IMG/VR virus record: IMGVR_UViG_3300044614_002230
Coordinates: 1 to 64,000 of that record
Length of the DNA: 64,000 nt
Source: a virus
Strand: one strand, 5' to 3'
Shown here piece after piece: positions 39,342-55,926 of this stretch. Below the pieces are notes generated by a model. It was not told the DNA's origin. It did not search any database and worked only from the letters and a program-made list of their open reading frames with translations. Numbering within the stretch: position 1 is the first letter of the stretch; the number at the start of each line of letters is the position of its first letter. The position numbers were made by a program, and so were the translations under genes.

Positions 39342-42300
39342 TCAACGATTACCTGTACCAAGACCTTGCAGGTCTAGTTCTTTCTGCATTTGGCCGATGG
39401 CAACGCGAATAAGGTCGATCTGAATCCTTTCCAGTGTTGGAACAGGAGTTACAAACACCTTAGCATTGACAACTCCACTCTCCAGGTTCATGGAATTGTT
39501 AATTCGCTCGTCGCAGATGACTTGGAAGGCATCTGAAGGACGTGCCCCGAACAGAGCACCTTTGACGTACAGTTCGTTTAGAACGCTGTTACCAACGTTA
39601 ACGATCTGGTTGTAAACCACACCGAAACCGTCGACAACGTTAAAGATCTGGTTATCGAAGGCATTACGAAGCGAGCCGTAAACCACGTTCAGAATAACGC
39701 GGGTGTTTACGAACTGGTACAGACGCTGCTGAGCATCGGCTTCGTTGATACGAGTACGACCACCCCAAATAAAGATTGAATTTAGGGGGTACCCAGGCAG
39801 GTTACGGATAGCGTTACAACCCTTCGGATTCAGCAAGTTCTGCTGAGCAGAGTTGATCGGAATCTGAGCCGCTACGGCATCCGAGAGCTGGTATTTAGCG
39901 CCAGCAGGCGGGAATTGGTAACCTTCGGAACGGTAACGACGAATTGCAACCCCGGTAACGTAAGGCGAGGGAGGAATCCACTGCCCACCGGCATTTTGGA
40001 TGTAAGGACCATAGTAGGCAATAAATCCAAGGGGATGCTCGTAACGTTGGCTGTCTTCCAGGAGACGAGTAACGTTATCAACACCGGCTTCTACGAACAC
40101 TGCTTGAGGCACACCATTAAATCCGACCCCTCTCAGAGCTTCGTCAATGATGTTGGTCGAGGTAACAGCATCAAACCTCCAGAGGTTTGCAGGAGGAGTT
40201 TGCTCAGGCAGGAACGAGATTTCTACGGTTGCGCCGTAGCAAGGCTGACCTGCAGCAATAATGTTTTCGTCTTGTCCAACAGCGTCCGGTTTTACAACCA
40301 TCCAAGTCACTGCTACACCGTCAGAAACAGCAGCAAGTCTATCGCCTTTAGCAACGTTTGTCTTGTCGTCAGGAGCCAGACCGTCGCTGGTTACATTGAA
40401 ATAAACACCAACCAGCTTAGAGCGCGAAGCTTGAACAGCATCAGCGGTTGAACCATTGCTTAAGCCCGTTGCTAAGACATAAGGAGTTACATTAGCTAAT
40501 GTACCATTTGAAGCCAGAGCAATCCCGGCAACATCGGCTTCGAATCCGACGCATCCTCCGATTGAAGCGGAATTCAACTCAAGTTGATCGCCAATCGCGT
40601 AACCACTTCCACCGGCAACAACAGTAACGTTGCTAACAACACCGCCAGTAACAGTAACAGTTACGGTAGCATTTTGACCGAGGCCAGTCTTGGTCACAAC
40701 AGGTACGCTAACGTACTGTCCGTCAGTACCACCGGTACCACCGTTTGTAACGGTTAGCGATTGCAGAGGACCCACGGCCGGACCACCACCGGCATTATAA
40801 TCACCACCCGGAATGGCTTGCAGGGAGGGAACCAGATAAGCTTCTGTGGAGAAACTTTGCTTTGTAGTAGGAACGCAATAGAAGTTTTCCACGAAAGCGG
40901 TTTCGTCACCAGGATCAACCAGTTTGAGTTCTGGCAGGTAACCAGCCGTGGTGTTTTCACCCCAGGCAGAGATTTGACCCTTACCAAGAACTTGGGCGCT
41001 GTTATTTAACCGGATGCTAACTTTAGGAGCAGTCAGCGAAGGAGCAGGAGCGACTTTAGAGTCTCCAGCAATGTTGTCAATCGTACCGCTAGCGAATCCG
41101 TACTTACGTCCACGTAGGAAAGGAATGTTAGTAAGTTCAGTAAGGTTAACAGCTGTTTCGCTTCCACCGAGAACATTCGTGTAAAAAATAGTCGGGCTGG
41201 AAACAATAGGAGCTGAAGGGAACAGAACGTAACTACCGGCATTTAGAGCAGTCAGGCTTGTTGACAGTACAAAACTATCGACAGACAGCTGTTTCACAAA
41301 ATAGTCGAAGGTTACAGCTTTTGTGGTAGCTTTAAAAATGTCAATTCCCCCTGCTGTAACAGGTTGCGTGAAGTAGACTTTTTGTCCATCCGTAAGGCCG
41401 TGATCGACACAGTTAATTACGGCAACGCCAGCAAGTCCAGGAGACGTAGAAGAAGTAATGGAAACTTTAGGATCATAAATTGTACGACTCTGGAAGCTCA
41501 AACGGTAGTTAGTTGTTGAACTTTGAAGCGTTGCAGGAAGGTGCAAGGTGTTGACACCCACAACCGAATCCGATACGCTTTGAATCAGGTCTGAGGATTG
41601 ACCGTTAATTAAAACCTCAAAATCCCATGCTGGGGTTTCGTAACTGATTTCACAGGCTCCACTTCCACTCGGGAAAGCAACAGCACCGGTAGGCAGTGTA
41701 GTGACTGCGCTCGAACCACCTAGCAGTTCAACAGAACGAAGAACAATAGCTGCTTCAGCCGGAGTCAAAGCAATAAAGGCATAATTTAGATTGTAATCTC
41801 CAAAATTTTTCTCATCAAATTTAGGAGCAATCAGATAAACGGATTTACCGTTGATAGCATGGAACGGATTGGTTGCATCCTCTGCACCTGTAACGTTCAC
41901 CTTTTGAATTTTCTTGTCTACAGGCCAATAATTGGAATTGTTAAACAAGATACGGCCAACAGCACCATTGTCCACATTGGCAATGTAGACCCCGGAATCA
42001 AGAATACCAATTTTTGTTCCAGGAGAAACAGTGTTGGTAGATTCTGTGACCGCTGTTTCAGGAGAAACACCGAACTTCAGCTCTTGATAATTGAGACGGG
42101 GATGGGTAACTGTAGCACCTGTCCACGTGTAAATGGCGTTGTCTACCAGGTACTTTTGGTTTGTCTCCAGGTCTTCAGCAGCTTTATGAGGAGTAAACTG
42201 ATTGTACTTATTAACATCAGTTACGTTGTAAGGGCCGGGATCAGCAATCGCCATCCACTTGTAACTGTTGTTAGCACAATGAGCAGCAGCGGCAGCTCCA

Positions 42301-43244
42301 ATGGCCGACCTTCCTTCCACGTCGAACTGAGCGTAGGCAGTAGGAGTGATCAAGTACCCTTGGTCTTGCTGACCGTCGAAAGCAGTGCTAATGCACTGAA
42401 TATAGTCTTGAGGAACTTTTGCAATGTCTCCTTGCCCCACAATGTTATCAACACTGTAGGTGTTTTGCATGAACACTGCAGTTTGTCCCACGGGGTCAAC
42501 CTGGGTCACAACAGAAACATTCCCTCCCCAAGTAGCGGAAGAGATTGTAACGTAAGCATTCTGAGAGTTAGCGTACTTGACTGGATCCAAGTCGTTGAGC
42601 ATGCCATAGCTACGCACGTACACCGAGCTGCTAACGCTAGGGTTCGATTGCATAGCTTCTGCCACAGCTTTGACAACGGCGGCAGAAATTTTGCGGTTGT
42701 TAGCCGCGTCTCCAGCGATGTAATTAACAGGAATGTTAACAGGAACACCAAGCCACTCACCGTTGGAACTGTACCCAGTGCTGTTGTTACCAGACACTAG
42801 AGGAATACCATTAACGATAATCTGAGCGTACACAACGTCCCCGGCCATCAAGGCTGAAGGAGTGCCTGTGCTGTTGATTTTAGTTCCAGAAGACAGCAGT
42901 TCGATCTCAACCACTTCTGCGGGAGTGCCAACCCGCACTACGCGAAGATCCCCGACTTGAGCGTTTAAGAAAAATTCTTGAACGCAGTTGTAGCTAAGAA
43001 GGGCAATACGGTCTTGGGGAATACTGCCGCCAAGAAGAACTTTATAGTCGTTGATGCTGGTAACTGCAACCGGCGTGTTAAAAGGAAAAACCGTTACAGG
43101 AACGCTATCCTCAACCTCAACCAACATATAAGTTGTGCTGAAGGGAGCAATAGCAGGAGTTCCTAAAATACCTGGGCGCTCATTAATGTAAACGCCAGGG
43201 GCGCCAGGAACAATAGCGCTGTTGCCGAGAGAAAAAGTAGCCAT
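39342..43244 (-). CDS. Tail sheath protein, unusually large (1300 aa)
   Basis: The ATG at 43244 is preferred over the upstream TTG at 43259; either way the sheath start 'GNSAIVPGAPGVYINERPG' is intact. The C-terminal 330 residues ('PPSPYVTGVAIRRYRSEGYQ', 'IFIWGGRTRINEADAQQRLY', 'NSVLNELYVKGALFGARPSD') are the sheath-conserved core that joins neighbouring subunits. Typical sheaths have 400-700 residues; here residues about 130-950 contain large beta-rich, Gly/Thr/Val-rich insertions facing outward, including 'VTVTVTGGVVSNVTVVAGGS'. It forms the contractile outer tube. Confidence 0.88.
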   Translation of the reverse strand: MATFSLGNSAIVPGAPGVYINERPGILGTPAIAPFSTTYMLVEVEDSVPVTVFPFNTPVAVTSINDYKVLLGGSIPQDRIALLSYNCVQEFFLNAQVGDLRVVRVGTPAEVVEIELLSSGTKINSTGTPSALMAGDVVYAQIIVNGIPLVSGNNSTGYSSNGEWLGVPVNIPVNYIAGDAANNRKISAAVVKAVAEAMQSNPSVSSSVYVRSYGMLNDLDPVKYANSQNAYVTISSATWGGNVSVVTQVDPVGQTAVFMQNTYSVDNIVGQGDIAKVPQDYIQCISTAFDGQQDQGYLITPTAYAQFDVEGRSAIGAAAAAHCANNSYKWMAIADPGPYNVTDVNKYNQFTPHKAAEDLETNQKYLVDNAIYTWTGATVTHPRLNYQELKFGVSPETAVTESTNTVSPGTKIGILDSGVYIANVDNGAVGRILFNNSNYWPVDKKIQKVNVTGAEDATNPFHAINGKSVYLIAPKFDEKNFGDYNLNYAFIALTPAEAAIVLRSVELLGGSSAVTTLPTGAVAFPSGSGACEISYETPAWDFEVLINGQSSDLIQSVSDSVVGVNTLHLPATLQSSTTNYRLSFQSRTIYDPKVSITSSTSPGLAGVAVINCVDHGLTDGQKVYFTQPVTAGGIDIFKATTKAVTFDYFVKQLSVDSFVLSTSLTALNAGSYVLFPSAPIVSSPTIFYTNVLGGSETAVNLTELTNIPFLRGRKYGFASGTIDNIAGDSKVAPAPSLTAPKVSIRLNNSAQVLGKGQISAWGENTTAGYLPELKLVDPGDETAFVENFYCVPTTKQSFSTEAYLVPSLQAIPGGDYNAGGGPAVGPLQSLTVTNGGTGGTDGQYVSVPVVTKTGLGQNATVTVTVTGGVVSNVTVVAGGSGYAIGDQLELNSASIGGCVGFEADVAGIALASNGTLANVTPYVLATGLSNGSTADAVQASRSKLVGVYFNVTSDGLAPDDKTNVAKGDRLAAVSDGVAVTWMVVKPDAVGQDENIIAAGQPCYGATVEISFLPEQTPPANLWRFDAVTSTNIIDEALRGVGFNGVPQAVFVEAGVDNVTRLLEDSQRYEHPLGFIAYYGPYIQNAGGQWIPPSPYVTGVAIRRYRSEGYQFPPAGAKYQLSDAVAAQIPINSAQQNLLNPKGCNAIRNLPGYPLNSIFIWGGRTRINEADAQQRLYQFVNTRVILNVVYGSLRNAFDNQIFNVVDGFGVVYNQIVNVGNSVLNELYVKGALFGARPSDAFQVICDERINNSMNLESGVVNAKVFVTPVPTLERIQIDLIRVAIGQMQKELDLQGLGTGNR

Positions 43245-43343
43245 TTTATTTAAAAACAAATCCTCTTTATATCGATTCGCGATGGAGGCGAGGAAGGACT
43301 CCTCCGTGGTTCCCGTAGGATCGCTTACCGAGGCACTTACATG

Positions 43344-44061: not shown

Positions 44062-44466
44062 TTAACGTGTAGAGAGTATATTCCCCCAAGCTATTGCGGG
44101 GAGTTTTTGCAAGGAGGTGGAAGGAATTCCCACCCAAGGGCGAGCGGACATTTTAGATGTCCCATTTTGATGATAAACTCCGTAAAATTTAGAGGTTACA
44201 TTAAATCCCTCGCCTTTTGGAACTATTTTCATGGAGTCTTGCATATCCCCGCTTGCGCGTAGGATTGATGCTCCTGGCCACCGTTTTAATTTCTGAACTG
44301 CGTAACCAGGGCTCAGCGATTGCCATGGACGACCAGTAGTTGGATCAGACTCTTGGCGCCAAAACGGTTGTTGATCAGATGCGAGAATTGGGGCCCATTG
44401 ACGTTGTGTCTTGGGCCACCAATTTAAGTTTACCTTAGGTAATTTTTTGAGTTTAAAACTGATCAC
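44062..44466 (-). CDS. Virion morphogenesis protein, Mu gpG-like
   Basis: 134 residues. The sequence 'LSPGYAVQKLKRWPGASILR' with 'ASGDMQDSMKIV', then 'YGVYHQNGTSKMSARPWVGI' carries the pattern of the phage virion morphogenesis family (W-x-P-L...K...I-L-R-D-S-G...I...H-Q-x-G...ARPF-x-G), which includes Mu gpG and tail completion proteins. Overlaps the upstream gene by 4 nt (ATGA). Confidence 0.72.
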   Translation of the reverse strand: MISFKLKKLPKVNLNWWPKTQRQWAPILASDQQPFWRQESDPTTGRPWQSLSPGYAVQKLKRWPGASILRASGDMQDSMKIVPKGEGFNVTSKFYGVYHQNGTSKMSARPWVGIPSTSLQKLPAIAWGNILSTR

Positions 44467-44882
44467 TTTTTCTTTTTCGAGGCTTTCTTCATTTCAGATT
44501 CTTGGCTGTCGACAAAGTTTTTTTGAATCTCAATCATGGTAAGAATTTTACTTATTGGCTGAGATTCTAACCAATCCATTGTCGAGTCCCAACGTTGCTT
44601 ACACAAATGAAATCCAACTTCTAACCAATTTTCCACTGTAAAAACAGTTTCATTCAGTAAATTGTTCATTGCCCAGTTTAAGATAGCTCGGCAAGGTTTT
44701 ATAGGTAGCTCGTTGAATTCTTCCTTTGATAGTATTAGCCTGAGAAAGATCGGGAACTGGTTTTGCTCGTTTTGACGTAAAATTTGAGCCAGGTAGAAAT
44801 CTTTGGGGCAAATTTCCCGCAGTAATACAGAAGGGTACCCTTCAACTGTTACCAAAAAAGTGAAGTCTTCCTGGTCATCCAC
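44463..44882 (-). CDS. Tail assembly chaperone, frameshift extension
   Basis: Own GTG start at 44882, but the frame is -1 relative to the upstream gene and open back through its last codons, which contain a CCCAAAC slippery heptamer. Thus it is probably made mainly as the C-terminal part of a 249-residue fusion, as for lambda G/GT and P2 E/E'. The protein is helical with 'RAILNWAMNNLLNETVFTVE' and a Lys-rich end. Chaperones of this kind coat the tape measure during tail assembly. Confidence 0.65.
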   Translation of the reverse strand: MDDQEDFTFLVTVEGYPSVLLREICPKDFYLAQILRQNEQNQFPIFLRLILSKEEFNELPIKPCRAILNWAMNNLLNETVFTVENWLEVGFHLCKQRWDSTMDWLESQPISKILTMIEIQKNFVDSQESEMKKASKKKK

Positions 44883-44884
44883 AG

Positions 44885-45211
44885 TTAGTTTGGGTCTTCT
44901 TCGTCTCCACCGCTGGCTTGAGCCACAAGGTCGCTCAGTTTTTTGAAGTCGCGAACACCGAGGTCCAAAATTTCGTCGTATGTAATTTTGTCTTCCCCAA
45001 CAATCAACCTTTCGATAATTTTCATACCTTTCTCGACGTCACCCGCTTTCGAAAGATCTTTCTCCATGAAAATTAGGTCGCGACCAGTCATCTCACGAAT
45101 TGTAATATGCCGGCCGTCTGACAAAATAGTTGAGAAAGTTTGCAGATTGTGTTTTTGTTCTTTTTTGTTTGCCGGCGTAGTTTGAACCGAGTCGTCAGAA
45201 ATAGTGCGCAT
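44885..45211 (-). CDS. Tail assembly chaperone (Mu gp41/E-like)
   Basis: 108 residues. 'LSDGRHITIREMTGRDLIFM' then 'KIIERLIVGEDKITYDEILD' and 'GVRDFKKLSDLVAQ' match the tail assembly chaperone family of Mu gp41/P2 E: D-G-R...R-E-x-T-G-R-D...L-x-D-x-x-x-R-D-x-x-x-L. It begins 26 nt after a GGGTAAAA box and ends with a slippery site for a -1 shift. Confidence 0.78.
   Translation of the reverse strand: MRTISDDSVQTTPANKKEQKHNLQTFSTILSDGRHITIREMTGRDLIFMEKDLSKAGDVEKGMKIIERLIVGEDKITYDEILDLGVRDFKKLSDLVAQASGGDEEDPN
44888..44894 (-). other. Slippery heptamer CCCAAAC for -1 ribosomal frameshift
   Basis: Coding strand codons GAC CCA AAC TAA contain C-CCA-AAC, a canonical X-XXY-YYZ heptamer, directly before the stop. 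A -1 shift reads on into CTA ACT GTG and the downstream chaperone frame without a stop. Confidence 0.65.
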
Positions 45212-45222
45212 AATTTGCTTGT

Positions 45223-45438
45223 TTACTGTTGATCAAGTTTTACCCGTGAGAGCATCAAAGCGGACTCTAGTTCCTCACTACCTTCTCCCGGAGGGAGGCT
45301 AAGGTAAATATCGTTGGCAATTTTCCAACTAAGGTTTGCAGAGTCGATATCTTTTTCGATGCGATCAGCAACGTCTTGTATCCAATCCCGTACTAAACCC
45401 TTGCGATAATCAGGATCTAATGGAAGTGGAAAAGGCAT
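45223..45438 (-). CDS. Small acidic protein, 71 aa
   Basis: Starts one base inside the upstream stop (TAATG). 'PDYRKGLVRDWIQDVADRIE' and 'DIYLSLPPGEGSEELESALM' look like a helical protein. Its last codons contain a GGGTAAAA box. Context: between polymerase and tail chaperones. Function unknown. Confidence 0.58.
   Translation of the reverse strand: MPFPLPLDPDYRKGLVRDWIQDVADRIEKDIDSANLSWKIANDIYLSLPPGEGSEELESALMLSRVKLDQQ
45238..45245 (-). promoter_or_regulatory. GGGTAAAA box, candidate late promoter (tail chaperones)
   Basis: Inside the final codons of the 71-residue gene, 26 nt before ATG 45211. The first such box after the polymerase, so it may open the tail operon. Confidence 0.5.
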
Positions 45439-45632
45439 TACAAAGCCTCAGACATCAGCATAGCCTCTTCTGACTCGAAGTAAGCGGCATTGTAGGCACA
45501 ATTTACCGAGGAAGGAATTTCCCTTCCTTTTTTATCGTAAGGAGTTACCAGGTAATATTCGTATCCGCTTTTGGGTCCTACAATTACCGAGAGAGAAGCG
45601 TAAACAACTCGAGATTTTTTAAACTTTTTCAT
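45438..45632 (-). CDS. Small protein, 64 aa, unknown function
   Basis: ATGA overlap with the polymerase stop, so translationally coupled to it. 'RVVYASLSVIVGPKSGYEYY' suggests a small beta-sheet fold; the C-terminus 'YFESEEAMLMSEAL' is acidic. No family recognised. It could be a polymerase accessory protein purely by position. Confidence 0.55.
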   Translation of the reverse strand: MKKFKKSRVVYASLSVIVGPKSGYEYYLVTPYDKKGREIPSSVNCAYNAAYFESEEAMLMSEAL

Positions 45633-48385
45633 TTAATTAGTCCTTTTTGAATAGCAGTGTAACGAGTTTTGAGTTTGTCGATGAACCCTTGTTCCGACAA
45701 TTCTTGCATAGAATACTCAACTCCCGGGGGTTCCTTAGCTCCTTGGGGATTTGACAGAGTGACTGTCTTTTCTTTGGGAGACTTGCGAAGGCGGTTGTCA
45801 ATCGCTACGCTCGAGAAAAATGCTCGAGACAAAGGCAATTCGGGAATACCCACCGACGAATGAAACAGACTCCAAGTATACATGTGGGCAATTTGAAATA
45901 AAACTGCAAATTGTTCTGCATATTTATCAGGGGTCATGAACCACACTTCGTCATGAATGCTTAGAATAAACCGAGCAGGAACCTTATATTCTTTAACAAG
46001 CCAATGGACCGTCGTCAAAAAGATTGCAAGAATTTCTGCACCAGAAGATTGAATGGTCCAATTAACCCTTGAGGTTTTAAAGTCGTCTCCCACTGCCGAA
46101 GGTCTCATTGCTGTAGAGATTTTGGTGCCTAAGCAAGGGAGGGTAGGAATTTTAGACCGCATTGCAATCTGTTCCATAAAGTTAAAACAACCCGAGTCAG
46201 AACCACCTTCGTATAAACCTTGTGTCATACGACCTTTTTTGCCTTCCAGAATCCGGTAAGCGAAATTTTTGACTTCCGTAGGGGATTTCTCAGGGTACTT
46301 TCGACGAATATAAGTTTGAACCGCACGAACGCCAGCACCGTAAAGCACGGCGAAACCGGCAATTTTAGCAGTGTCACGGTCTACGCCCGCGAGTTTCGCA
46401 AGTGCAGAGTGAGGATCCGTACCCGCTTCCTTAGAGCCTGACAACACATTGTGCCCGAAAGGTGAACAACCAACGTGGCCCCCTTCCCACTTGTCGCTGT
46501 AGATTGAAGCAATCTGCATTTCCTGGCCATCAAAGTCAGCGCCAACAATTTTCCAGCCATCCGGTGCCTGCACCCGAGATTTAAGCTCAGTGCCAATGCG
46601 CCAATTTTTGGTGGAACACATGGTAACCATAAGGGATTCAACAGTCCTTCTAGTTACCGTACCGTGACACAGGATCTCTGGAAGAGTAACCAGAGCATCG
46701 GCCCCATGGGGATTATGAGCAGGAAGGAAAATTCTGTCCATAACCCGCTTGCGAACCGAGGTCCAGTAAGAAACGGCATTCGCGATCTCCAGGGCTCTTT
46801 TGGCTTCTGGCAGGTCACTAGACAACCTACCAACAGCCATGTCGTCAACGAAGTCTTTACTTAATACACCGCCGACGTTATCTCCCGCACCTTTTGGATG
46901 AGGTATTTTTTGAAGTTTTCCCTCTTCATCGTGGTAGCACCAACCGTCGTTTTCTGTAAAGATCATTGGGCTACCTTCATACTTGAGCTTAAGCATCAAG
47001 TGTGAGAGGATCGATTTCACACCAATGTGGGTTTCCGGGTCTTTAATAAAAGGACGAACCCAGTTAGGAACTCCGGCATATTTACCTTTTTGAGTCTTCA
47101 CTTCCCAATTCAATTGGCTCAGCCAAGGGTCCCGAACCTCAAATTCTTCTTTGTTTTCGGATTCCTTCCATGTTTCATAATTTTGCCAAACAAGGTCCCT
47201 ACAGAGCTGGGTCATTTCCTCGTTGTGCTCTTGAAACACCCTCTCTACATTTTGAATCCACTCCTCCCAATCAGGGACCAGAGGAATAACAGAACCGTTG
47301 AGGTGATAATGACCGCACAAGGCAACCATTGAAGGTGTAGAGTTTAGGTACTTGGGCCATATTGCCTGGAAAAGTTCGGCGGTGTAAAAAGCGTCCTTCA
47401 AGGCGTAATCGAGAGCCTGTGTTAGCATCTGCCGAATTTGACTTAGATGTGTCGCTTTTACGAAAATATCGCGAACCTTTTTATCGCTGTCTCCCAGCTC
47501 GGTAACATTTTCTCCGAAGTATTTTCTAACGGCTGCTACATGAAAGTTATAACATTGAACCAGAGAGTTCGTCGCACCTTTATCGAGCCACTTCGGGGCG
47601 TACCGGAGTTTTCTCTTTTCTTCTTCAGTTAGATCCTCAGGGTCTTTACCTGCCAGCACATATAGCCAGCGTTGACCCCCGGCAAGACCGGAAACACCGA
47701 TGTGTGCCGACAATGTGTCAAAATAGAAATTCTCTGGCTCGGTGTTTTCAAGGGAATACCCTTCCCTGGCCCGAACACGGTCGTACGAAATATTATGACC
47801 AGCAATAAACCGTTGTCGCCCAACTGGAATCAACCCGTGTTGTTCCCACTTGTCTTCTGGAATCGTTGGGTCAATTAGCTCTGCAGCCAGCCAAACGTAA
47901 GCTGCCTTTGGTGACAAAGCGGTTCCGATAATTGGGAAAGCACCGCCATGCACATAAGTTTCGGTGTCAAATGTAAATACTTCTTCCTCGGGGTAAGGAA
48001 CTTTTTTAGTTTTCCATTTCCCTTTTACTTTCTCATACCGAATCCAACCGCTCTCCAGGATAAACTCTTCTGGTGGCGGTAGTTCTGGAAGCTCACAACT
48101 AGCAAACTTGTCGCCAAGGTCTTTATACCGACCTACTTGATTTGCAGCGATAGTTTCAAAATGCTCTTTTAGTGAATTACCCTTCAAATCTGGCAGCGGA
48201 AGTTCTCCGTTGTACAGATTATCAGGGTAATCAACAGGCGTACTAATCCCGAAATTTTTCAGAAGACCTTTCGCCTTTTGAATTTCTGTTCGAGACATAC
48301 CCTTGAGTTTTTCCTGCCCGAAGATCTTGTCGTGCAGATCGTCTGAAATAACTGGGTATCCTAGTTCTGTGATTCTGAGTGCCAT
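45629..48385 (-). CDS. Family A DNA polymerase resembling mitochondrial pol gamma
   Basis: 918 residues with a full set of proofreading and polymerase motifs. Exo I FDTET (D140, E142), Exo II GHNISYD (N198, D202), Exo III Y327...D331; Pol A VGADFDGQEMQIAS (D617, E622), Pol B R670-D-T-A-K674...Y682-G683, Pol C IHDEV (H811-D812-E813). Sequence blocks typical of animal POLG are present, such as GTVTRR-V-ES, GTELKSRVQAP, G-C-PFG...GTD-HS, P-LG-IS-AM-PSAV, TSRVNW-x-x-QSS and the final FFSSVAIDNRLRK. This is far closer in pattern to POLG than to T7 or E. coli Pol I. Main replicase of the phage, presumably. Preceded by TATAAT. Confidence 0.93.
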   Translation of the reverse strand: MALRITELGYPVISDDLHDKIFGQEKLKGMSRTEIQKAKGLLKNFGISTPVDYPDNLYNGELPLPDLKGNSLKEHFETIAANQVGRYKDLGDKFASCELPELPPPEEFILESGWIRYEKVKGKWKTKKVPYPEEEVFTFDTETYVHGGAFPIIGTALSPKAAYVWLAAELIDPTIPEDKWEQHGLIPVGRQRFIAGHNISYDRVRAREGYSLENTEPENFYFDTLSAHIGVSGLAGGQRWLYVLAGKDPEDLTEEEKRKLRYAPKWLDKGATNSLVQCYNFHVAAVRKYFGENVTELGDSDKKVRDIFVKATHLSQIRQMLTQALDYALKDAFYTAELFQAIWPKYLNSTPSMVALCGHYHLNGSVIPLVPDWEEWIQNVERVFQEHNEEMTQLCRDLVWQNYETWKESENKEEFEVRDPWLSQLNWEVKTQKGKYAGVPNWVRPFIKDPETHIGVKSILSHLMLKLKYEGSPMIFTENDGWCYHDEEGKLQKIPHPKGAGDNVGGVLSKDFVDDMAVGRLSSDLPEAKRALEIANAVSYWTSVRKRVMDRIFLPAHNPHGADALVTLPEILCHGTVTRRTVESLMVTMCSTKNWRIGTELKSRVQAPDGWKIVGADFDGQEMQIASIYSDKWEGGHVGCSPFGHNVLSGSKEAGTDPHSALAKLAGVDRDTAKIAGFAVLYGAGVRAVQTYIRRKYPEKSPTEVKNFAYRILEGKKGRMTQGLYEGGSDSGCFNFMEQIAMRSKIPTLPCLGTKISTAMRPSAVGDDFKTSRVNWTIQSSGAEILAIFLTTVHWLVKEYKVPARFILSIHDEVWFMTPDKYAEQFAVLFQIAHMYTWSLFHSSVGIPELPLSRAFFSSVAIDNRLRKSPKEKTVTLSNPQGAKEPPGVEYSMQELSEQGFIDKLKTRYTAIQKGLIK

Positions 48386-48762: not shown

Positions 48763-49026
48763 TTACTCAAAATTGTAATCCCAGCAAGTTTCCCCCGGGT
48801 TGGAATCATACAACCCTAGGTTACGGGCTTCGTTAATCGGGTCTAAGATTGACCGATCATTCTTCACTTTTCTGTGAAGCCTCAAACGCCAAAGAACATA
48901 CTTTTTTGCATTGCTCTGGTTGGGGTTCTCCAAATAGTTGTTGTAACACTTTTCTACGGTTTGCACCATGCCTACTCCCGCTTTTTCAACAAGGTAGTCG
49001 ATTTTTCTCAAGGCTTTCGTCTTCAT
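48763..49026 (-). CDS. Small basic helical protein, 87 aa
   Basis: ATGA overlap with the upstream coiled-coil gene. 'KIDYLVEKAGVGMVQTVEKC' and 'NAKKYVLWRLRLHRKVKND' suggest a basic helical protein. Possibly DNA-binding or a subunit partner of the preceding protein; not recognised. Confidence 0.55.
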   Translation of the reverse strand: MKTKALRKIDYLVEKAGVGMVQTVEKCYNNYLENPNQSNAKKYVLWRLRLHRKVKNDRSILDPINEARNLGLYDSNPGETCWDYNFE

Positions 49027-49847
49027 GCTGCTACCTCCTCGTTAGTTTCACCACTGTAAGTGAACATTTGCACATCAAATTTTCGAGTACCAGTGGACTC
49101 GTAAACCAGGTCTTTGTTCTTTTTGTAAATTTCTTGAGCGTCAAACACTTTTGGGAAGTGCAACGGTCTGTCTCCGGGGTTATCTTTCCAGTACATCATT
49201 TCAGTGTAAGAATAAGGCTGGTCAATGTCCCAAGTTTCGTCTCTGGCTCCATAAATTAGAGGCAGACCTTCGTTCCTCCACCAATCCGTAATAATTTCGC
49301 TATACTGATTCCAAGAAACAGGATCCGTTAAATAAGTTTTGCATTCCTCTTGAATCCAGCGAATGTATTCTCTACCGTGATTAATAATAATGTTAGCAGA
49401 ATCTGGAATTTCTTCTAGATAATAGGCATCTTCTGCTCCATCCATGATTCTCTCATAAATGACAGGAAATATGAAAGACTCTGAGAGAAGTTTAAAGTCT
49501 TCATTGTTGCCGCACATGTTTCGAAGCAAAGATTGAAACACACATACTGTACTGGCTATACGAAGCTCTTGAGGTGAAGACTTCAGTGAAGCAATTTTTT
49601 CTACTGGTTGAGTTTTTTGGAGCACTCTTAACTCGTTTTGCAGTCTCCTGACCTCGCGGTTTGCTTCCCTTTGAACTTTTTCTTTGTACACCTCGGCAGA
49701 CGCCAAAAAAGTTTCCAACCGGGTTTCCAGCTTGTCAAGATCTGCACTAAAGGCTTCTACCTGGATTTTTAGGTTTGATAGTTTTTTCTTTATCCCTGCT
49801 ACATTGTTCTTTAGTGTTGTGGCGGGATAAGCCAGATTGTCTTGCAC
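49023..49847 (-). CDS. Coiled-coil protein with globular C-terminus, 274 aa
   Basis: GTG start at 49847, 2 nt after the upstream stop. Residues 10-85 form a clear coiled coil ('LSNLKIQVEAFSADLDKLET' ... 'REVRRLQNELRVL'). The C-terminal part is Trp/Tyr-rich ('SWNQYSEIITDWWRNEGLPL'), suggesting a compact domain. Unknown function; it may be a tail or host-takeover protein. Confidence 0.6.
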   Translation of the reverse strand: MQDNLAYPATTLKNNVAGIKKKLSNLKIQVEAFSADLDKLETRLETFLASAEVYKEKVQREANREVRRLQNELRVLQKTQPVEKIASLKSSPQELRIASTVCVFQSLLRNMCGNNEDFKLLSESFIFPVIYERIMDGAEDAYYLEEIPDSANIIINHGREYIRWIQEECKTYLTDPVSWNQYSEIITDWWRNEGLPLIYGARDETWDIDQPYSYTEMMYWKDNPGDRPLHFPKVFDAQEIYKKNKDLVYESTGTRKFDVQMFTYSGETNEEVAA

Positions 49848-49849
49848 GG

Positions 49850-50404
49850 TTACAGTCGTTTAATGTGGGCTTTGAGGTTGTCGTTGGCTACATCGATTAC
49901 ATCAATGTGAAACTTATAACGAAGGTCCGGATCACTAAGTAAGTGAAATTCCCCTTCAAACCTGTCCCCATCTTTGGACCTCAAGTAAGAGTTACCTGGA
50001 GTGGGGGGAGAACATAGTGCAATGTTTCCGGACAGATTAGGGTCCTCTTCTTCTATAGCTTGGACGATTCTCTGGTAAATCGCCGAAGAAGCGGCAAGCT
50101 CATTATCGTTAGTAATTTGAGCCTTCACTTCTCCTTCTACAGCTTTCAGGAGAGATGCAATACCGCTATCCAAGTAAATACCGCAACTTTCCCCGTCTTC
50201 CTCGCACTTGAAACACACCTCCTCAGCAAGAAACTCGCAATCCTCAGGGTCTTCAAAGTTTTGTAGATCGTACTCTAGAATATCGTAGAAAGCAGACTTA
50301 AGAGTATCTCCGTCAGGGCCTTGCAAAATTTTTGCAATGGCGTAAAACAATCTAGGGTTGGCAAGTAGTCGTTCTACAGGGTAAATAACTTGAATTTCTT
50401 CCAT
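49850..50404 (-). CDS. Acidic protein, 184 aa, unknown function
   Basis: The ATG at 50404 (MEEIQVIYPVERLL) is preferred to an in-frame start at 50437 that lies within the hairpin. 'RLFYAIAKILQGPDGDTLKS' and 'CEFLAEEVCFKCEEDGESC' hold several Cys in an acidic helical protein. The C-terminal part ('DRFEGEFHLLSDPDLRYKFH') looks beta-like. First gene of a short operon with a GGGTAAAA box and hairpin leader. Confidence 0.58.
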   Translation of the reverse strand: MEEIQVIYPVERLLANPRLFYAIAKILQGPDGDTLKSAFYDILEYDLQNFEDPEDCEFLAEEVCFKCEEDGESCGIYLDSGIASLLKAVEGEVKAQITNDNELAASSAIYQRIVQAIEEEDPNLSGNIALCSPPTPGNSYLRSKDGDRFEGEFHLLSDPDLRYKFHIDVIDVANDNLKAHIKRL

Positions 50405-50421
50405 TGTATTACTCTTTAAAG

Positions 50422-50439
50422 GTGTGACGTGCCTCACAC
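50422..50439 (-). other. Leader hairpin after late-box copy
   Basis: GTGTGA/TCACAC stem with 6-nt loop, starting 2 nt downstream of the GGGTAAAA box. Same placement and size as the hairpin at 4183-4200. Confidence 0.5.
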
Positions 50440-50455: not shown

Positions 50456-52426
50456 TCACAGTTTAATGTCTTGCAAATTGGCGACCTTAATGCCTTTGGC
50501 TCCAGGGCGACCTTGCTTAACATTTACGGGAAACAGTTCCACTTTTTTCTTTCGAGAAGACACCCAAGGAACAGTATAGGACCCTTCACCAAAGTGAAGC
50601 AGTTTAGCACCTTCTGGTAAAGCTTTCTTGCCTTTGGATGTAACACGACAAAGGTCCTCTCCGGAAACCATCATAGCTTTTAGCTGATCCTCAAAAGCAA
50701 ACACAGCCAGGTACCTTCTTTCGGAGACTTCGGATTCTTTCTTGGCCAATACTACAGTTGAGTAAGTTTCCCCAAGAGCACCTTTAAAATTGGCAGGAAT
50801 TTTTTTCAGGAACCCGTCTTCTGTTAAAGTAATTAGTTTCTCTTTTTGGTCGAGAACAAGGGCACCCCTGGGACCTTTAACCTGCTCAACAACCCCCCGC
50901 TTCATGTCAATCTTCAAGAACCGGGGTCTAGGAGCGGCTGCAACCCGGGTCTTTTTCTCCCCGTTGACAGTCACCACCAGGCTGTCCGGGGGTTCCACCA
51001 GAGAGCTTCTACGAGCCTCTCCGTGGCGTGTGGTGAGCTGTGTCATGAGCTTAACCGCATAGGCCGCCCGTTTCTTCGGGTCTTTGATAAGCTCTTCCAG
51101 CTCCAACACCACGTCCAACAAGGTCGTTTTTTCGTTGGCCAAGGCAGTATGGTCCAGTTTCGTCAGTTGTGCCAGACGCATATCCAAAATCGCGTTGGCT
51201 TGCTCCCGGCTGAACTTATACGGTTTGTCTACGAGCTTGATTAGAGCGTCTGAGCGGGAGCTGGCACTCCGAATTAGTTTAATGATATCATCAAGACTGC
51301 CAATTGCTTTCAGCAAACCTTCGACAATGTGAAGGCGAGCGTTTGTTTTCTCAAGATCTAGCTCATATTTTGCTTGAAGGCGGTCCAGTCGCCAGTCGAA
51401 CCATTTCTTACAAATGTCAATTGGGCTGAGTTCGACGGGTTTCGTACCGTCAATAACCAGCGTTTTTGCCGAATAACGAGTGTCGAGATCGGTGTATGCG
51501 TACAGTTGTTTAGTAAGGAGTTCAGTGTCGGTATTGGCCTTTGCAATAATTGTGACACGGTCTCCGGAGAGATCAGACTCATCGATGACTTCAGCAATGC
51601 CATGAATTTTCCCTTTGTCTAGCGCATCTTTGATTTGCTCCCCGATTTTTTCAGGGTTAACGGCAGGCGGAAGGTGAGTAAACGTAATCGCCGTTTTTGC
51701 CTTGCCTTTTTGTTTCTTAGTTTCAGTAATTTCCAGCTTAGCGCGAACGCGGATGCTACCAGAACCGGTTCGAGCGTAATCAGTAAGTCCTTCATCTTTT
51801 ACAATGTCGCAACCGGTCGGGAAGTCGGGGTACAGCTCTGCTGTTTTTTTCGAGTTTATTAGCTTCGTGGCTTCAACTACTTCTCGGAGATTGTGTGGGG
51901 CGAGTTTCGTAGCGAATCCCACAGCAATTCCACTGTCACCATTAAGGAGAACAGAAGGGATAGCAGTATTAAATCGGATGGCCTCTTGACGTGACCCGTC
52001 GTAGTTTTCAATCGTTTCCCAAGTTTCACGGTCTTGAAGCAAAAGGTCGGTGGCGGACGGTCGCAATTTACACTCAGTGTATCTTTCAGCAGCAGGGCCG
52101 TCAACACTGCTTCCGAAATTGCCGTGACCGTCCACCCAGGGCACGTTGTTGTTCCAAGGGGTTGCCATGTTCACGAGCGCACCGTAGGCACCTCCGTGAG
52201 GGTGGTAATACGCCATCGTAAGGCCAGTCACCCGGGCGCACTTTACATAGCGTTTCTCAGGGCTCAAACCTTCTTCCAGCATCGTTTGGAGCACACGGCG
52301 CTGTACAGGTTTAAGTCCGTCGTAAAGATCAGGGATAGCTCTCCCCAGCAGCACCGCCATGCTGTAGGAGAGGTAGTCCTCCTTCATTTGGGAGGCTAGG
52401 TTAGTTGTCGTGAGTTGTTCTGCCAT
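50456..52426 (-). CDS. Type II topoisomerase subunit A (GyrA/ParC-like)
   Basis: 656 residues. N-terminal breakage-reunion domain: 'AIPDLYDGLKPVQRRVLQTM', 'HPHGGAYGALVNMATPW', and the catalytic Tyr116 in AAERYTE. Coiled-coil/gate region about 330-460. The C-terminal 170 residues contain beta-pinwheel-like strands but are shorter than in host GyrA (about 850-900 residues), so only a partial pinwheel is present. No GyrB/ParE partner lies in the window; it may lie outside or be supplied by the host. Likely relieves supercoiling during phage replication. The ATG is 6 nt behind a -10 box with no Shine-Dalgarno. Confidence 0.9.
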   Translation of the reverse strand: MAEQLTTTNLASQMKEDYLSYSMAVLLGRAIPDLYDGLKPVQRRVLQTMLEEGLSPEKRYVKCARVTGLTMAYYHPHGGAYGALVNMATPWNNNVPWVDGHGNFGSSVDGPAAERYTECKLRPSATDLLLQDRETWETIENYDGSRQEAIRFNTAIPSVLLNGDSGIAVGFATKLAPHNLREVVEATKLINSKKTAELYPDFPTGCDIVKDEGLTDYARTGSGSIRVRAKLEITETKKQKGKAKTAITFTHLPPAVNPEKIGEQIKDALDKGKIHGIAEVIDESDLSGDRVTIIAKANTDTELLTKQLYAYTDLDTRYSAKTLVIDGTKPVELSPIDICKKWFDWRLDRLQAKYELDLEKTNARLHIVEGLLKAIGSLDDIIKLIRSASSRSDALIKLVDKPYKFSREQANAILDMRLAQLTKLDHTALANEKTTLLDVVLELEELIKDPKKRAAYAVKLMTQLTTRHGEARRSSLVEPPDSLVVTVNGEKKTRVAAAPRPRFLKIDMKRGVVEQVKGPRGALVLDQKEKLITLTEDGFLKKIPANFKGALGETYSTVVLAKKESEVSERRYLAVFAFEDQLKAMMVSGEDLCRVTSKGKKALPEGAKLLHFGEGSYTVPWVSSRKKKVELFPVNVKQGRPGAKGIKVANLQDIKL

Positions 52427-52477: not shown

Positions 52478-52969
52478 TTATTCGATTGTTTCTACTTTAT
52501 GTGGGTACTTTTTGCACAAGTTTTCGATACGGGTTCTCATCCCTTTCATCCAACTTTCGTTTTGAGTGTTGTTCCTTGCTGCTCGCCTACGCTCCAGCTC
52601 TTCTTCACTGACTTGCAAACAAATCAAGTTCATGCCAATGTTTTCTTGAAACATAGCATCCATGTTAGGACCATTGCTCAAACGTTCCCCTTCACCGTAA
52701 ATTATCCAGTCCGGAAATTCTTCCGTGGCTCCGAGTAACCATTCACGAAACTTGGGTCCCACACCTTTACTCCAGGTGTCGGTCCCTGCAAACGTGCCTT
52801 CATCATAACGTCCAAGGACGATTGTCTTCTGTTTAAGGAATTTATGGTAAGTTACCAACCCTTCTTTAATGAATTCATCTGTTTCGTTCTCTCGAAGGTT
52901 ATTTAAAATACCGCGCATCAACGTGGTTTTACCGGTTCCAGGTTGACCAATGTAATAAAAGATTTTCAT
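52478..52969 (-). CDS. P-loop kinase, probable 5-hydroxymethyl-dU DNA kinase type
   Basis: 163 residues. Walker A GQPGTGKTT at 8-16 begins the protein. 'GRYDEGTFAGTDTWSKGVGP', 'IYGEGERLSNGPNM', and 'LQVSEEELERRRAARN' correspond to the lid and base-binding parts of small nucleotide-type kinases. The neighbour (ATGA overlap) resembles the alpha-glutamyl/putrescinyl thymine pyrophosphorylase family, with which this kinase class is linked in phages; the known role is phosphorylating 5-hydroxymethyl-pyrimidine in DNA ahead of adduct attachment. Kinase fold is clear; substrate is inferred from context. Confidence 0.68.
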   Translation of the reverse strand: MKIFYYIGQPGTGKTTLMRGILNNLRENETDEFIKEGLVTYHKFLKQKTIVLGRYDEGTFAGTDTWSKGVGPKFREWLLGATEEFPDWIIYGEGERLSNGPNMDAMFQENIGMNLICLQVSEEELERRRAARNNTQNESWMKGMRTRIENLCKKYPHKVETIE

Positions 52970-53907
52970 TGTTTAGGGTTGTAATGGTAATGCAGGGTGC
53001 CGTGGTTTAAAAACAATTCCATTTTAGCTTTATCTTCACGGGCGTAACGTGGAGCCAATACATCGCCAACAACTTCTCCACGAGCTTGCCAAATTACGTT
53101 CCAATCGATCCCGTGCCAGTTATCATTTTCAGCTTTCATAACTTCTTCTGATTGCCGGTCAAGGTAATAGCCAACGTAACGGCCTCGACTGGTTCTCCAG
53201 AGCTTTTTGTAAGCACAGAGTGCGGTTTCCATTGAGAAGTTGTCGAATTGGGAAGCAAGCAATGGCCAACGCTTGCGAGCTTCCAGCAAAAGTTCAGCAC
53301 CAGCTATTTCTAAGTAAGCGTACTCTTTGCTGGTCAATTTTTGGTTGACCCATTCGTCTTTCCCGAGCGCATAACACAACCCGTTTCTGTGAGACTTGGA
53401 TCCTGAGTAGTCACTTAGTAGTAATGTTGGGCAATCAATATTGATGCCACACGTGTGTTTTAATGTTTGTAAGTAAAAAAATGCGGTGTAACGTCCGAAC
53501 TTATACCATTCTCCTTTTATAATTGCCCAGAGTCGTTCAAAGTTAACTTCCGGCTCCTCCGTACAAATTCGGTCAAACACAGCTTTTTGTGAAGACCCGT
53601 GAACCCAATCACAATACGATTGGTACATGGCTGGCAGGTGCCCTTTTGACCACTTCGTGTCAGTTTGATAGCGCAATCGTGTATAATTCTCGTTGTTCCA
53701 TTGGGTAAATCTATCTACACTCGCCAACTCCTCATCGGGGAATTCGTTCTTATAAACGAATGCGGTGGGTAAATTGTATGTGTGATACAACCATGCAAAC
53801 CACAAACGTTCTTCCACCGAGTATTCATACCGGTCGTTCAGGTATTGGATCAACCAGAGTGCAGGATCGCAATCCCCGGAAGCCACGCTTGCTGCGTAAA
53901 ATTGCAA
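52966..53907 (-). CDS. Alpha-glutamyl/putrescinyl-thymine pyrophosphorylase-like (clade 2) protein
   Basis: About 313 residues if translation begins at TTG 53907 behind GAGGG; an ATG frame opens at 54039 but its first 30 codons lie antisense to the phosphatase gene and look unconserved. Residues (from the TTG) around 'DPALWLIQYLNDRYEYSVEE', 'RLWFAWLYHTYNLPTAF', 'NEFPDEELASVDRFTQWNNE', 'YKFGRYTAFFYLQTLKHTCG' and 'SKSHRNGLCYALGKDEW' match the pattern I know for helical aGPT-Pplase2-type proteins of phage base-hypermodification loci. That family attaches amino-acid or polyamine groups to activated hydroxymethyl-uracil in DNA. Recognition by eye; substrate unknown. Confidence 0.65.
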   Translation of the reverse strand: MQFYAASVASGDCDPALWLIQYLNDRYEYSVEERLWFAWLYHTYNLPTAFVYKNEFPDEELASVDRFTQWNNENYTRLRYQTDTKWSKGHLPAMYQSYCDWVHGSSQKAVFDRICTEEPEVNFERLWAIIKGEWYKFGRYTAFFYLQTLKHTCGINIDCPTLLLSDYSGSKSHRNGLCYALGKDEWVNQKLTSKEYAYLEIAGAELLLEARKRWPLLASQFDNFSMETALCAYKKLWRTSRGRYVGYYLDRQSEEVMKAENDNWHGIDWNVIWQARGEVVGDVLAPRYAREDKAKMELFLNHGTLHYHYNPKQ

Positions 53908-53943
53908 AAAACCCTCAGATCTTTGACTTAATTCACGGTAATC

Positions 53944-54354
53944 ATGACCAACGTTCTTTTTGTTTGTACTGGCAACATTAACCGCAGCGCCGCCGCACAC
54001 ATTATCTTGGAGTCTCATAGTAGCAGTTATAAAGTTCAATCATGTGGCACCGGGAAAGTCGCTCCGTTAGGTAAAAAGGTCCCCAGCAAAATGCGTATGG
54101 CCCTGGAAGAATTGGGATACAATCCCAACAATCACCGCTCTCAAGGTGTCTCCGAAGAATTGCTTGCCTGGGCTGATAAAATCGTGATTATGGGCAACGC
54201 CCACGAGAAATTTATCACAGAGCATTACCCTCAGTACCTTACTAAAATAACCAATTGGAACGTTAAAGATCCTCACTTTGCTACTGGGAATGAGCTGCAT
54301 CGTAAGGTGGCCAAAGAAATTGAAGTCAAAGTTAATCAGTTATTTGTTGAATGA
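53944..54354 (+). CDS. Low-molecular-weight protein tyrosine phosphatase-like
   Basis: The only plus-strand gene. 136 residues with the P-loop V-C8-TGNINR14-S (C-x5-R-S) at the N-terminus and the general-acid loop 'VKDPHFATGN' with Asp109 in the DP motif. LMW-PTPs cleave phosphotyrosine; relatives include arsenate reductases and wall-polysaccharide phosphatases. It is wedged in the modification island: its 3' end overlaps the amidoligase stop by 23 nt (convergent), and its start is 36 nt from the proposed aGPT start (divergent). Opposite orientation suggests recent insertion or independent control. Its target may be a protein, or a phosphorylated intermediate; unknown. Confidence 0.85.
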   Translation: MTNVLFVCTGNINRSAAAHIILESHSSSYKVQSCGTGKVAPLGKKVPSKMRMALEELGYNPNNHRSQGVSEELLAWADKIVIMGNAHEKFITEHYPQYLTKITNWNVKDPHFATGNELHRKVAKEIEVKVNQLFVE

Positions 54355-55270
54355 CCTTCACAGTTTCCTCGGCAGTGCAGTTATCGATATCTAAATGTTT
54401 ACGCAGATCGTTGATACGGGTTTCGGCAACTTTCCGAGAATTTTTATCAAAATTAGTGTACTGATACCCGCACTCCATTGCAAAATCAAACGGGGCAAAC
54501 TCAGGGAAATCATAAGAGTATGCCGAAAGCAATTCTGAAACAAGGGCATCATTCAAAGCCCCCTCGATAAACTTCGCTACCCACACAAAACAGGAGGCTA
54601 ACTTTTTAACATCAAGAGTGTTCGTAAAATGGCGAAATTCAACGGTGTCCGTTTCTTGCAACTGTAACAAGTTGATGCCAGCTCTTGTTGTTAGTCCATA
54701 TGCTCGTTTGTTGTCAGTCTGCAATTTTGAGTGAGCATCAAAGAACTCGCGCACCGTTGTTGCTTGCATCGCCTCAGCAACTCTCGCAGCAGGCACCTTA
54801 TATTGGTGAGAAACTTTACGTCGCTTGTAGCGTTTGAGAGCACCCTTATAGGCTTCTTCGCTGAAGTAATCTTCCCTCAATGGTACCGGAATTGGCTCAA
54901 TTGCTGCATAAATTTGACCTTGATTCGCATCAATATACGCAAGCAATTTCTTGAGAGATTTTAAATCCTCCGACAACCCTGGTACACAAATATGTAAATG
55001 CAAGTTTGTTCGGTGGTTGATAGCAGCTTCCGGATGTCGGGCAATCAACAACTCAAACATTTCAAGTTGTTCAGCAAAGCTATCGGTAGGCGCAGAGTTA
55101 ATCTCTCCTCCGCGTTGGTACGCTCGCCCTTTAGGGTCATTTGCGATCCCGGTTGAACTTACGATTGAGTAATCTTTTTCGTTCCAAGTTAGCCCTTGAG
55201 GTAAATCACTCCTCCAAATATCACCAAACTCGTATTCTGCCCCGAACGTTACGTTCTTGAGGTCAATCAT
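54332..55270 (-). CDS. Amidoligase (COOH-NH2 ligase family)
   Basis: 312 residues. 'TFGAEYEFGDIWR' at 8-20, 'GGEINSAPTDSFAEQLEMFE' near 54-73, 'NHRTNLHLHICV' near 85-96, and 'DTVEFRHFTNTLDVKKLASC' near 212-232 form the signature of the amidoligase family (glutamine-synthetase-like fold: G-x-E-x-E-F, E-I/V-S-x-P, G-x-H-x-H, E-F-R). Such ligases form amide bonds using ATP. It starts in an ATGA overlap with the class II glutaminase, so ammonia or an amidated product is probably passed between them. In a hypermodification island it may build the adduct. Confidence 0.8.
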   Translation of the reverse strand: MIDLKNVTFGAEYEFGDIWRSDLPQGLTWNEKDYSIVSSTGIANDPKGRAYQRGGEINSAPTDSFAEQLEMFELLIARHPEAAINHRTNLHLHICVPGLSEDLKSLKKLLAYIDANQGQIYAAIEPIPVPLREDYFSEEAYKGALKRYKRRKVSHQYKVPAARVAEAMQATTVREFFDAHSKLQTDNKRAYGLTTRAGINLLQLQETDTVEFRHFTNTLDVKKLASCFVWVAKFIEGALNDALVSELLSAYSYDFPEFAPFDFAMECGYQYTNFDKNSRKVAETRINDLRKHLDIDNCTAEETVKVIQQITD

Positions 55271-55926
55271 GGAATCAGTTCCTCAACGTTTGTTATTTTA
55301 GTGCCACCTTTGGGAGTGTAAATCCACCCCGGTTCGCATCGCCGTGGTCGTTTCAATCCTGCACGCAGAGCAATGTCTGATGTTGAGCAGATAAATACAC
55401 CGTTGGGTACACGGTTGAAGTACAAAGGGCGTTTCCCGTTGCGATAAAACCGCAACCCATCGGAGCCCAACTCGGCAACTGCCATACTTGCTTCAGGGAA
55501 CTCTTTCAGCGGTTCTTTCCCCGCATGTCTTGCTTGGTATAGTAACTCGGAATCGTTACTTGTTGCTAGTTCGTAACCGTGCTCGCCCCAATAAACAGGT
55601 GGCCTTTGATCGACAACACCGTTGTGGGCAAGCGCCAAGTCTTCAAAAATATGCAAAGGTTGATTGAATTTAAGGTCGCTCGTCGAATACCTGCAATGGC
55701 CAATCAATTGCAAAGTGTAATCACCAGGCTGCACCTCTGCGAAATGACTTTGCACGAAAGTTTCCGCAGGGACAGGCGCAACTTGAGTGAAGATTCGCTT
55801 ATTGCGAACCAGAGAGTAACCACTTGCGTGTTTTCCTCTAATCTGGGACTCGACAAACAATCGTTTCAGGGTCTGAATTTGTTCTTCAGAAGGCGAGTCA
55901 AGGTAACAACCAACTATAGCACACAT
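55267..55926 (-). CDS. Class II glutamine amidotransferase
   Basis: 219 residues with the N-terminal nucleophile Cys2 (MCAIVG), 'RGKHASGYSLV', 'IGHCRYSTSDLKFNQPLH', 'LALAHNGVVD' and 'SNDSELLYQ', the sequence of landmarks of GATase II glutaminase domains (as in PurF, GlmS, AsnB). It lacks any synthetase or isomerase domain, so it should supply ammonia to a partner, probably the overlapping amidoligase downstream. It follows the TET/JBP gene directly, with no gap. Confidence 0.88.
   Translation of the reverse strand: MCAIVGCYLDSPSEEQIQTLKRLFVESQIRGKHASGYSLVRNKRIFTQVAPVPAETFVQSHFAEVQPGDYTLQLIGHCRYSTSDLKFNQPLHIFEDLALAHNGVVDQRPPVYWGEHGYELATSNDSELLYQARHAGKEPLKEFPEASMAVAELGSDGLRFYRNGKRPLYFNRVPNGVFICSTSDIALRAGLKRPRRCEPGWIYTPKGGTKITNVEELIP

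Follow-up and report, generated by a model that had tools for sequence, protein, structure and literature searches.

A DNA polymerase gamma in a contractile-tailed phage related to cyanophage S-CBWM1, and the replisome context of phages that encode this enzyme

DNA polymerases of the gamma type (POLG), the replicases of mitochondria, are already known from cyanophages. Passages of the report on phage Mic1 (PMC7156551) review the enzymes of A-HIS1/2 (Chan 2011), S-TIM5 (Sabehi 2012), S-CBWM1 (Xu 2018) and Mic1 itself, propose a common ancestor for the cyanophage and mitochondrial polymerases, and predict further finds. A passage of another, recent paper (PMC12230644) gives the replication proteins of animal mitochondria a monophyletic origin in T-odd (T7-like) phages. 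The polymerase analysed here does not represent a new type of phage replicase, as the Mic1 passages (PMC7156551) place the first report of a cyanophage POLG in 2011. The addition made here is the replisome context of POLG phages: in the titles, abstracts and passages searched, where subscription literature is thinly covered, we found no published statement that these phages lack partners of the TWINKLE or T7 type.

The window (the whole stretch of DNA analysed, 64,000 nucleotides) comprises bases 1-64000 of a viral contig 65,704 bases long. This record is an incomplete fragment, and its other genes include those for a contractile tail sheath and a portal, for the major head protein and a head protease, and for the large terminase; a tRNA scan found none. 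The gene for the POLG-type replicase lies at 45629..48385 (-), stop codon counted, exactly where it was originally placed, and is identified by Pfam, PDB match and structural model. It encodes 918 amino acids from an ATG start with zero internal stops. A broken gene was considered and rejected, as neither a stop nor a frameshift was seen. Between this gene and that of one relative (L229), 539 of 794 base differences are at third codon positions, and we conclude that it is under protein-level constraint. The POLG blocks GTVTRR...GTELKS, TSRVNWTIQSS, FFSSVAIDNRLRK and SNPQG all occur, in the expected order.

Pfam identified the mitochondrial polymerase exonuclease domain (DNApol_Exo, PF18136) at residues 61-346 with E 1.7e-61, and the family A domain (DNA_pol_A) with E 3.4e-11. 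PF18136 was found in none of 14 well-known cellular control genomes. In a phmmer search of all PDB sequences, the protein matched yeast Mip1 (5.8e-118) and human and mouse POLG (1e-105 to 1e-109), and the best polymerase other than the POLG type had E 0.12. The Pfam and PDB matches are far above chance, and chance motif similarity was rejected as an explanation. The window ORF genuinely belongs to the DNA polymerase gamma family, with an affinity beyond the generic family A motifs that sequence, structure and phylogeny all support.

The exonuclease domain (47348..48205 (-); Pfam and alignment) retains the acidic residues D140, E142, D202 and D331, which align with those of yeast and human POLG. 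It is followed by a short spacer (residues 438-492; 46910..47074 (-)), defined as the gap between phmmer blocks. The spacer between the aligned exonuclease and polymerase blocks had been singled out for comparison with human POLG, and the animal-type spacer proved to be nearly absent: 55 residues, versus 250 in human POLG. Thus, there is no room for the POLG2-docking segment of animal POLG. The family A polymerase domain (PF00476; residues 599-831; 45893..46591 (-); Pfam and alignment) contains motifs A, B and C. The residues kept are D617 of motif A, E622, R670, K674 and Y682 of motif B, and D812 of motif C.

Motif B of the window protein has phenylalanine (F678) where human and yeast POLG have tyrosine, a position that we take to be Y951 in human numbering. 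By analogy with human Y951, T7 Y526 and E. coli F762, F678 would be expected to confer strong discrimination against ddNTPs. We compared this position in 107 aligned rows: the window protein, yeast and human, five named phages and the 99 unique full-length relatives from IMG/VR. Of these rows, 76 have F and 31 have Y; those with Y belong to the S-TIM5 type or are Mic1, yeast and human. Passages by the authors of the Mic1 report (PMC7156551) likewise give tyrosine for Mic1 and S-TIM5 and not for A-HIS1/2 or S-CBWM1. The spacing between motifs A and B was measurable in 98 of the 105 phage rows. In 20 of these, including S-CBWM1 (L016) and A-HIS1/2 (L019, L020), the two motifs are separated by an insert of about 26-56 residues; human and yeast POLG, the S-TIM5 type and the window protein have no such insert.

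An AlphaFold2 model of the window protein, built from an alignment with 33 IMG/VR relatives (33 of 50 representatives), has a mean pLDDT of 86.5 and a pTM of 0.86. The first 36 rows of a Foldseek search of the PDB are all POLG (best E 4.7e-57, TM 0.85), and Klenow follows them (E 1.4e-11, TM 0.30). After structural realignment the first 35 rows are all POLG, with Z from 45.2 to 28.6, followed by pol theta (16.4) and T7 (15.8).

Of 50,697 phage records, 16 match the window protein, and in 11 the match covers at least 80% of it; the remaining five matches are partial and T7-like. For comparison, E. coli Pol I matches at least 5,000 phage records. Identity to the window protein is 57% for S-CBWM1, 38% for S-TIM5 and three relatives in this search, 34% for yeast Mip1, 31% for Mic1 and A-HIS2, and 28% for A-HIS1. 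A pattern search identified 161-163 relatives in IMG/VR. Also found was a POLG fragment (58% identity) on a 9.6-kb contig of a metagenome-assembled 'Microbacteriaceae' genome, the sole match in genome contigs (L090); this is probably a phage contig binned with that genome.

Phylogenies included human and yeast as the only eukaryotes. The 99 unique full-length relatives were represented by 23 sequences in the first tree, 10 of those in the next and five in the next; a further tree comprised five of these representatives and four additional loci. Long branches were flagged across the POLG trees. The window protein groups with S-CBWM1-like sequences, and the S-TIM5, A-HIS and Mic1 types are separate. 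Mic1 and the eukaryotes are split from the other phages with bootstrap values of 99-100 in full-length, polymerase-domain and exonuclease-half trees. Forcing the phage POLGs together costs 3.9 log units (p-AU 0.179), so a monophyletic phage group is not rejected. Against yeast Mip1, L292, which is closely related to Mic1, scores 356 bits, and the next phage type, A-HIS2, 291 bits. The suggestion that the window encodes a phage replicase closer to POLG does not hold in this sense: its clade is far from mitochondria among phage POLGs. We also rejected the window enzyme as the phage POLG closest to mitochondria, as its identity is 39-40% to S-TIM5 but 34% to yeast Mip1, and the Mic1 type is nearest. 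With Mic1's own sequence as query, only three Mic1-type loci were found in viral contigs (L292, L293, L294). The Mic1 gene itself consists of two ORFs with a 298-bp intron between them, according to Mic1's authors.

The genes around the polymerase are ordered as in S-CBWM1: topoisomerase II, two uncharacterised proteins, POLG, small proteins and Neck1. In the window, a topoisomerase II subunit is encoded upstream of POLG (50456..52426 (-)), and between the two are genes for conserved proteins of 195 and 274 amino acids with no assigned function (49023..50437 (-)) that have counterparts in S-CBWM1. Downstream (44062..45632 (-)) are small proteins, most with S-CBWM1 counterparts, the last of which is tail completion/Neck1. 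At the DNA level, megablast of window positions 40000-64000 gave no match to phage records, including S-CBWM1. The tail sheath (39342-43259 (-)) is 1305 amino acids long and only its C-terminal third matches the known sheath profile; the sheath gene of S-CBWM1 is long as well.

Genes at 52966-57357 (-) likely form a cluster for DNA base hypermodification. These encode an amino acid:DNA transferase (ADDT; 52966-54039 (-); E 4.9e-20), an amidoligase-like protein (54332-55270 (-); below the cut-off), a class II glutamine amidotransferase (55267-55926 (-)) and a Tet/JBP oxygenase (55927-57357 (-); E 5.9e-12). The window POLG may thus copy a modified template.

We compared gene content across 14 POLG-phage records, namely that of the window, S-CBWM1, S-TIM5, Mic1, A-HIS1 and nine large IMG/VR contigs. 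Tet/JBP is present in five of the 14 and ADDT in only two. Genes of the psbA family occur in nine of the 14, the window record not being one of them. The host is therefore deduced from relatives: the named phages and these psbA genes point to a cyanobacterium. We did not identify a helicase of the DnaB/T7 gp4 (TWINKLE) type in any of the 14 records (the window record being a fragment), nor a T7-type RNA polymerase; both are present in all four T7-like control phages. Thus, the link to T7-like mitochondrial replication enzymes raised in the original prediction is not supported for POLG phages. A family B polymerase is likewise absent from all 14.

A protein with the DUF5906 domain is encoded in 12 of the 14 records, missing from the window fragment and one 114-kb contig, and in none of three T7-like phages. 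In the reciprocal direction, POLG was found in 10 of 20 large records selected via the DUF5906 protein: 10 of 12 records of at least 110 kb and none of eight records of 92 kb or less. This size pattern is the one expected if the shorter records are fragments, though it does not prove it. Sequence searches of the PDB with the DUF5906 protein returned nothing significant. Its structural model (pLDDT 75, pTM 0.60) matches superfamily 3 (SF3) helicases, including those of SaPI5, vaccinia/mpox (D5/E5), African swine fever virus PrimPol, NrS-1 and papillomavirus E1, at modest Z values of about 11-13 and Foldseek E of 2.8e-7 to 2.5e-5. No DnaB-type chain is among the 50 matches listed, although this does not demonstrate that none would match. 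In vaccinia D5 the match covers residues 321-785, the helicase half, and DUF5906 is assigned to the AAA+ helicase domain of D5 in a passage of PMC9611036; the PHROG name 'DNA primase' for this partner is thus unproven. From the model, the DUF5906 partner of POLG is most likely a poxvirus D5-like SF3 helicase. In loci L328-L330, L332-L335, L339 and L340, the match to the 646-residue helicase spans 2.2-2.9 kb, and the gene there may contain an intein, intron or other insert.

Could the window enzyme be an ordinary phage Pol I or T7-type polymerase, with POLG blocks that are generic or convergent? Family A motifs are indeed present, and T7-like polymerases are sister to the POLG clade with weak support (89/84). 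However, the T7-like rows form their own clade (99/98), and phage and eukaryotic POLGs together form a clade at 100/100 against T7-like and E. coli Pol I outgroups in two trees. The second of these included 11 such rows (six Pol I, comprising five phage enzymes and that of E. coli, and five T7-like). The phylogeny that the original prediction had called for thus places the window protein in the POLG clade and not among ordinary phage Pol I. The structural comparison proposed alongside it agrees, with Z of about 29-45 for POLG versus about 16 for T7 and Pol I, and the protein carries PF18136. Tree placement and fold search refute this explanation, and its probability is negligible.

A recent capture of the gene from a eukaryote, from mitochondrion to phage, would fit the branch shared by eukaryotes and Mic1, and phage monophyly is not rejected (p 0.179). 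Against it are the depth and long branches of at least four phage types, the 161-163 metagenomic relatives, the conserved phage gene order and the lack of an animal-type spacer, and we regard such a capture as quite unlikely. An auxiliary or repair polymerase, rather than the phage replicase, could be suspected from the position of the helicase gene, which is far from POLG in the relatives, so that the two are not in one operon. The absence of a family B polymerase from all 14 records, the strong co-occurrence with the D5-like helicase and the intact proofreading site argue otherwise and leave a repair role only a very slim chance. The window enzyme is very probably the replicative polymerase of an S-CBWM1-like contractile-tailed cyanophage as well as a true POLG family member.

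As a replicase, the enzyme would extend primers by two-metal chemistry at D617 and D812, with R670, K674 and Y682, and would proofread with its own exonuclease (D140, E142, D202, D331). It presumably works without a POLG2-like accessory subunit, because the docking spacer is nearly absent. The fork helicase would most likely be the D5-like SF3 ATPase encoded alongside POLG in the genomes of relatives; no D5-like helicase gene was found in the 65.7-kb window record, which is a fragment. Primers may be removed by a separate 5'-3' exonuclease, such as is annotated in S-CBWM1 and A-HIS1, and the topoisomerase II encoded upstream of POLG would relieve supercoils.

With no T7-type helicase or RNA polymerase detected, the known POLG phages do not resemble a donor of the whole POLG-TWINKLE-POLRMT set, and an origin of that set in one package from the POLG phages known so far is unlikely. 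It is possible, if not quite probable, that mitochondrial POLG came from a Mic1-type cyanophage lineage with a D5-like SF3 helicase, and TWINKLE and the mitochondrial RNA polymerase separately from T7-type phages. If so, the mitochondrial replisome would be a chimera drawn from two or more phage sources, not one T7-like package, and the window's clade would display the POLG half together with the helicase it first worked with. The separate clade and different helicase of POLG phages make a single-donor origin testable, and the metagenomic relatives provide the sampling for a properly rooted tree. The compact phage enzymes are also natural minimal models of human POLG.

The closest known system is the polymerase of S-CBWM1 (Aokuangvirus), which is 57% identical over its full length, has topoisomerase II upstream and small genes and Neck1 downstream as in the window, and differs in having about 36 residues between motifs A and B that are missing from the window protein. 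The polymerases of S-TIM5, A-HIS1/A-HIS2 and Mic1 share family, domain order and a DUF5906 partner with the window's group but are only 28-40% identical to the window protein and fall in separate clades. Yeast Mip1 and human POLG resemble the window protein over its whole length, in sequence and fold, although it lacks an AID-sized spacer; unlike the animal POLG-POLG2 holoenzyme, it has neither the long spacer nor the accessory-subunit docking segment within it. T7 gp5 has the family A fold and 3'-5' exonuclease in common with the window protein, yet it and T7-like polymerases are outside the POLG clade at 100/100, and T7-like phages encode a DnaB-type helicase and a T7-type RNA polymerase beside the polymerase (4 of 4 records). 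Compared with the mitochondrial replisome of POLG, TWINKLE and POLRMT, POLG phages have the same kind of polymerase but another type of helicase, and none of the 14 records encodes a T7-type RNA polymerase.
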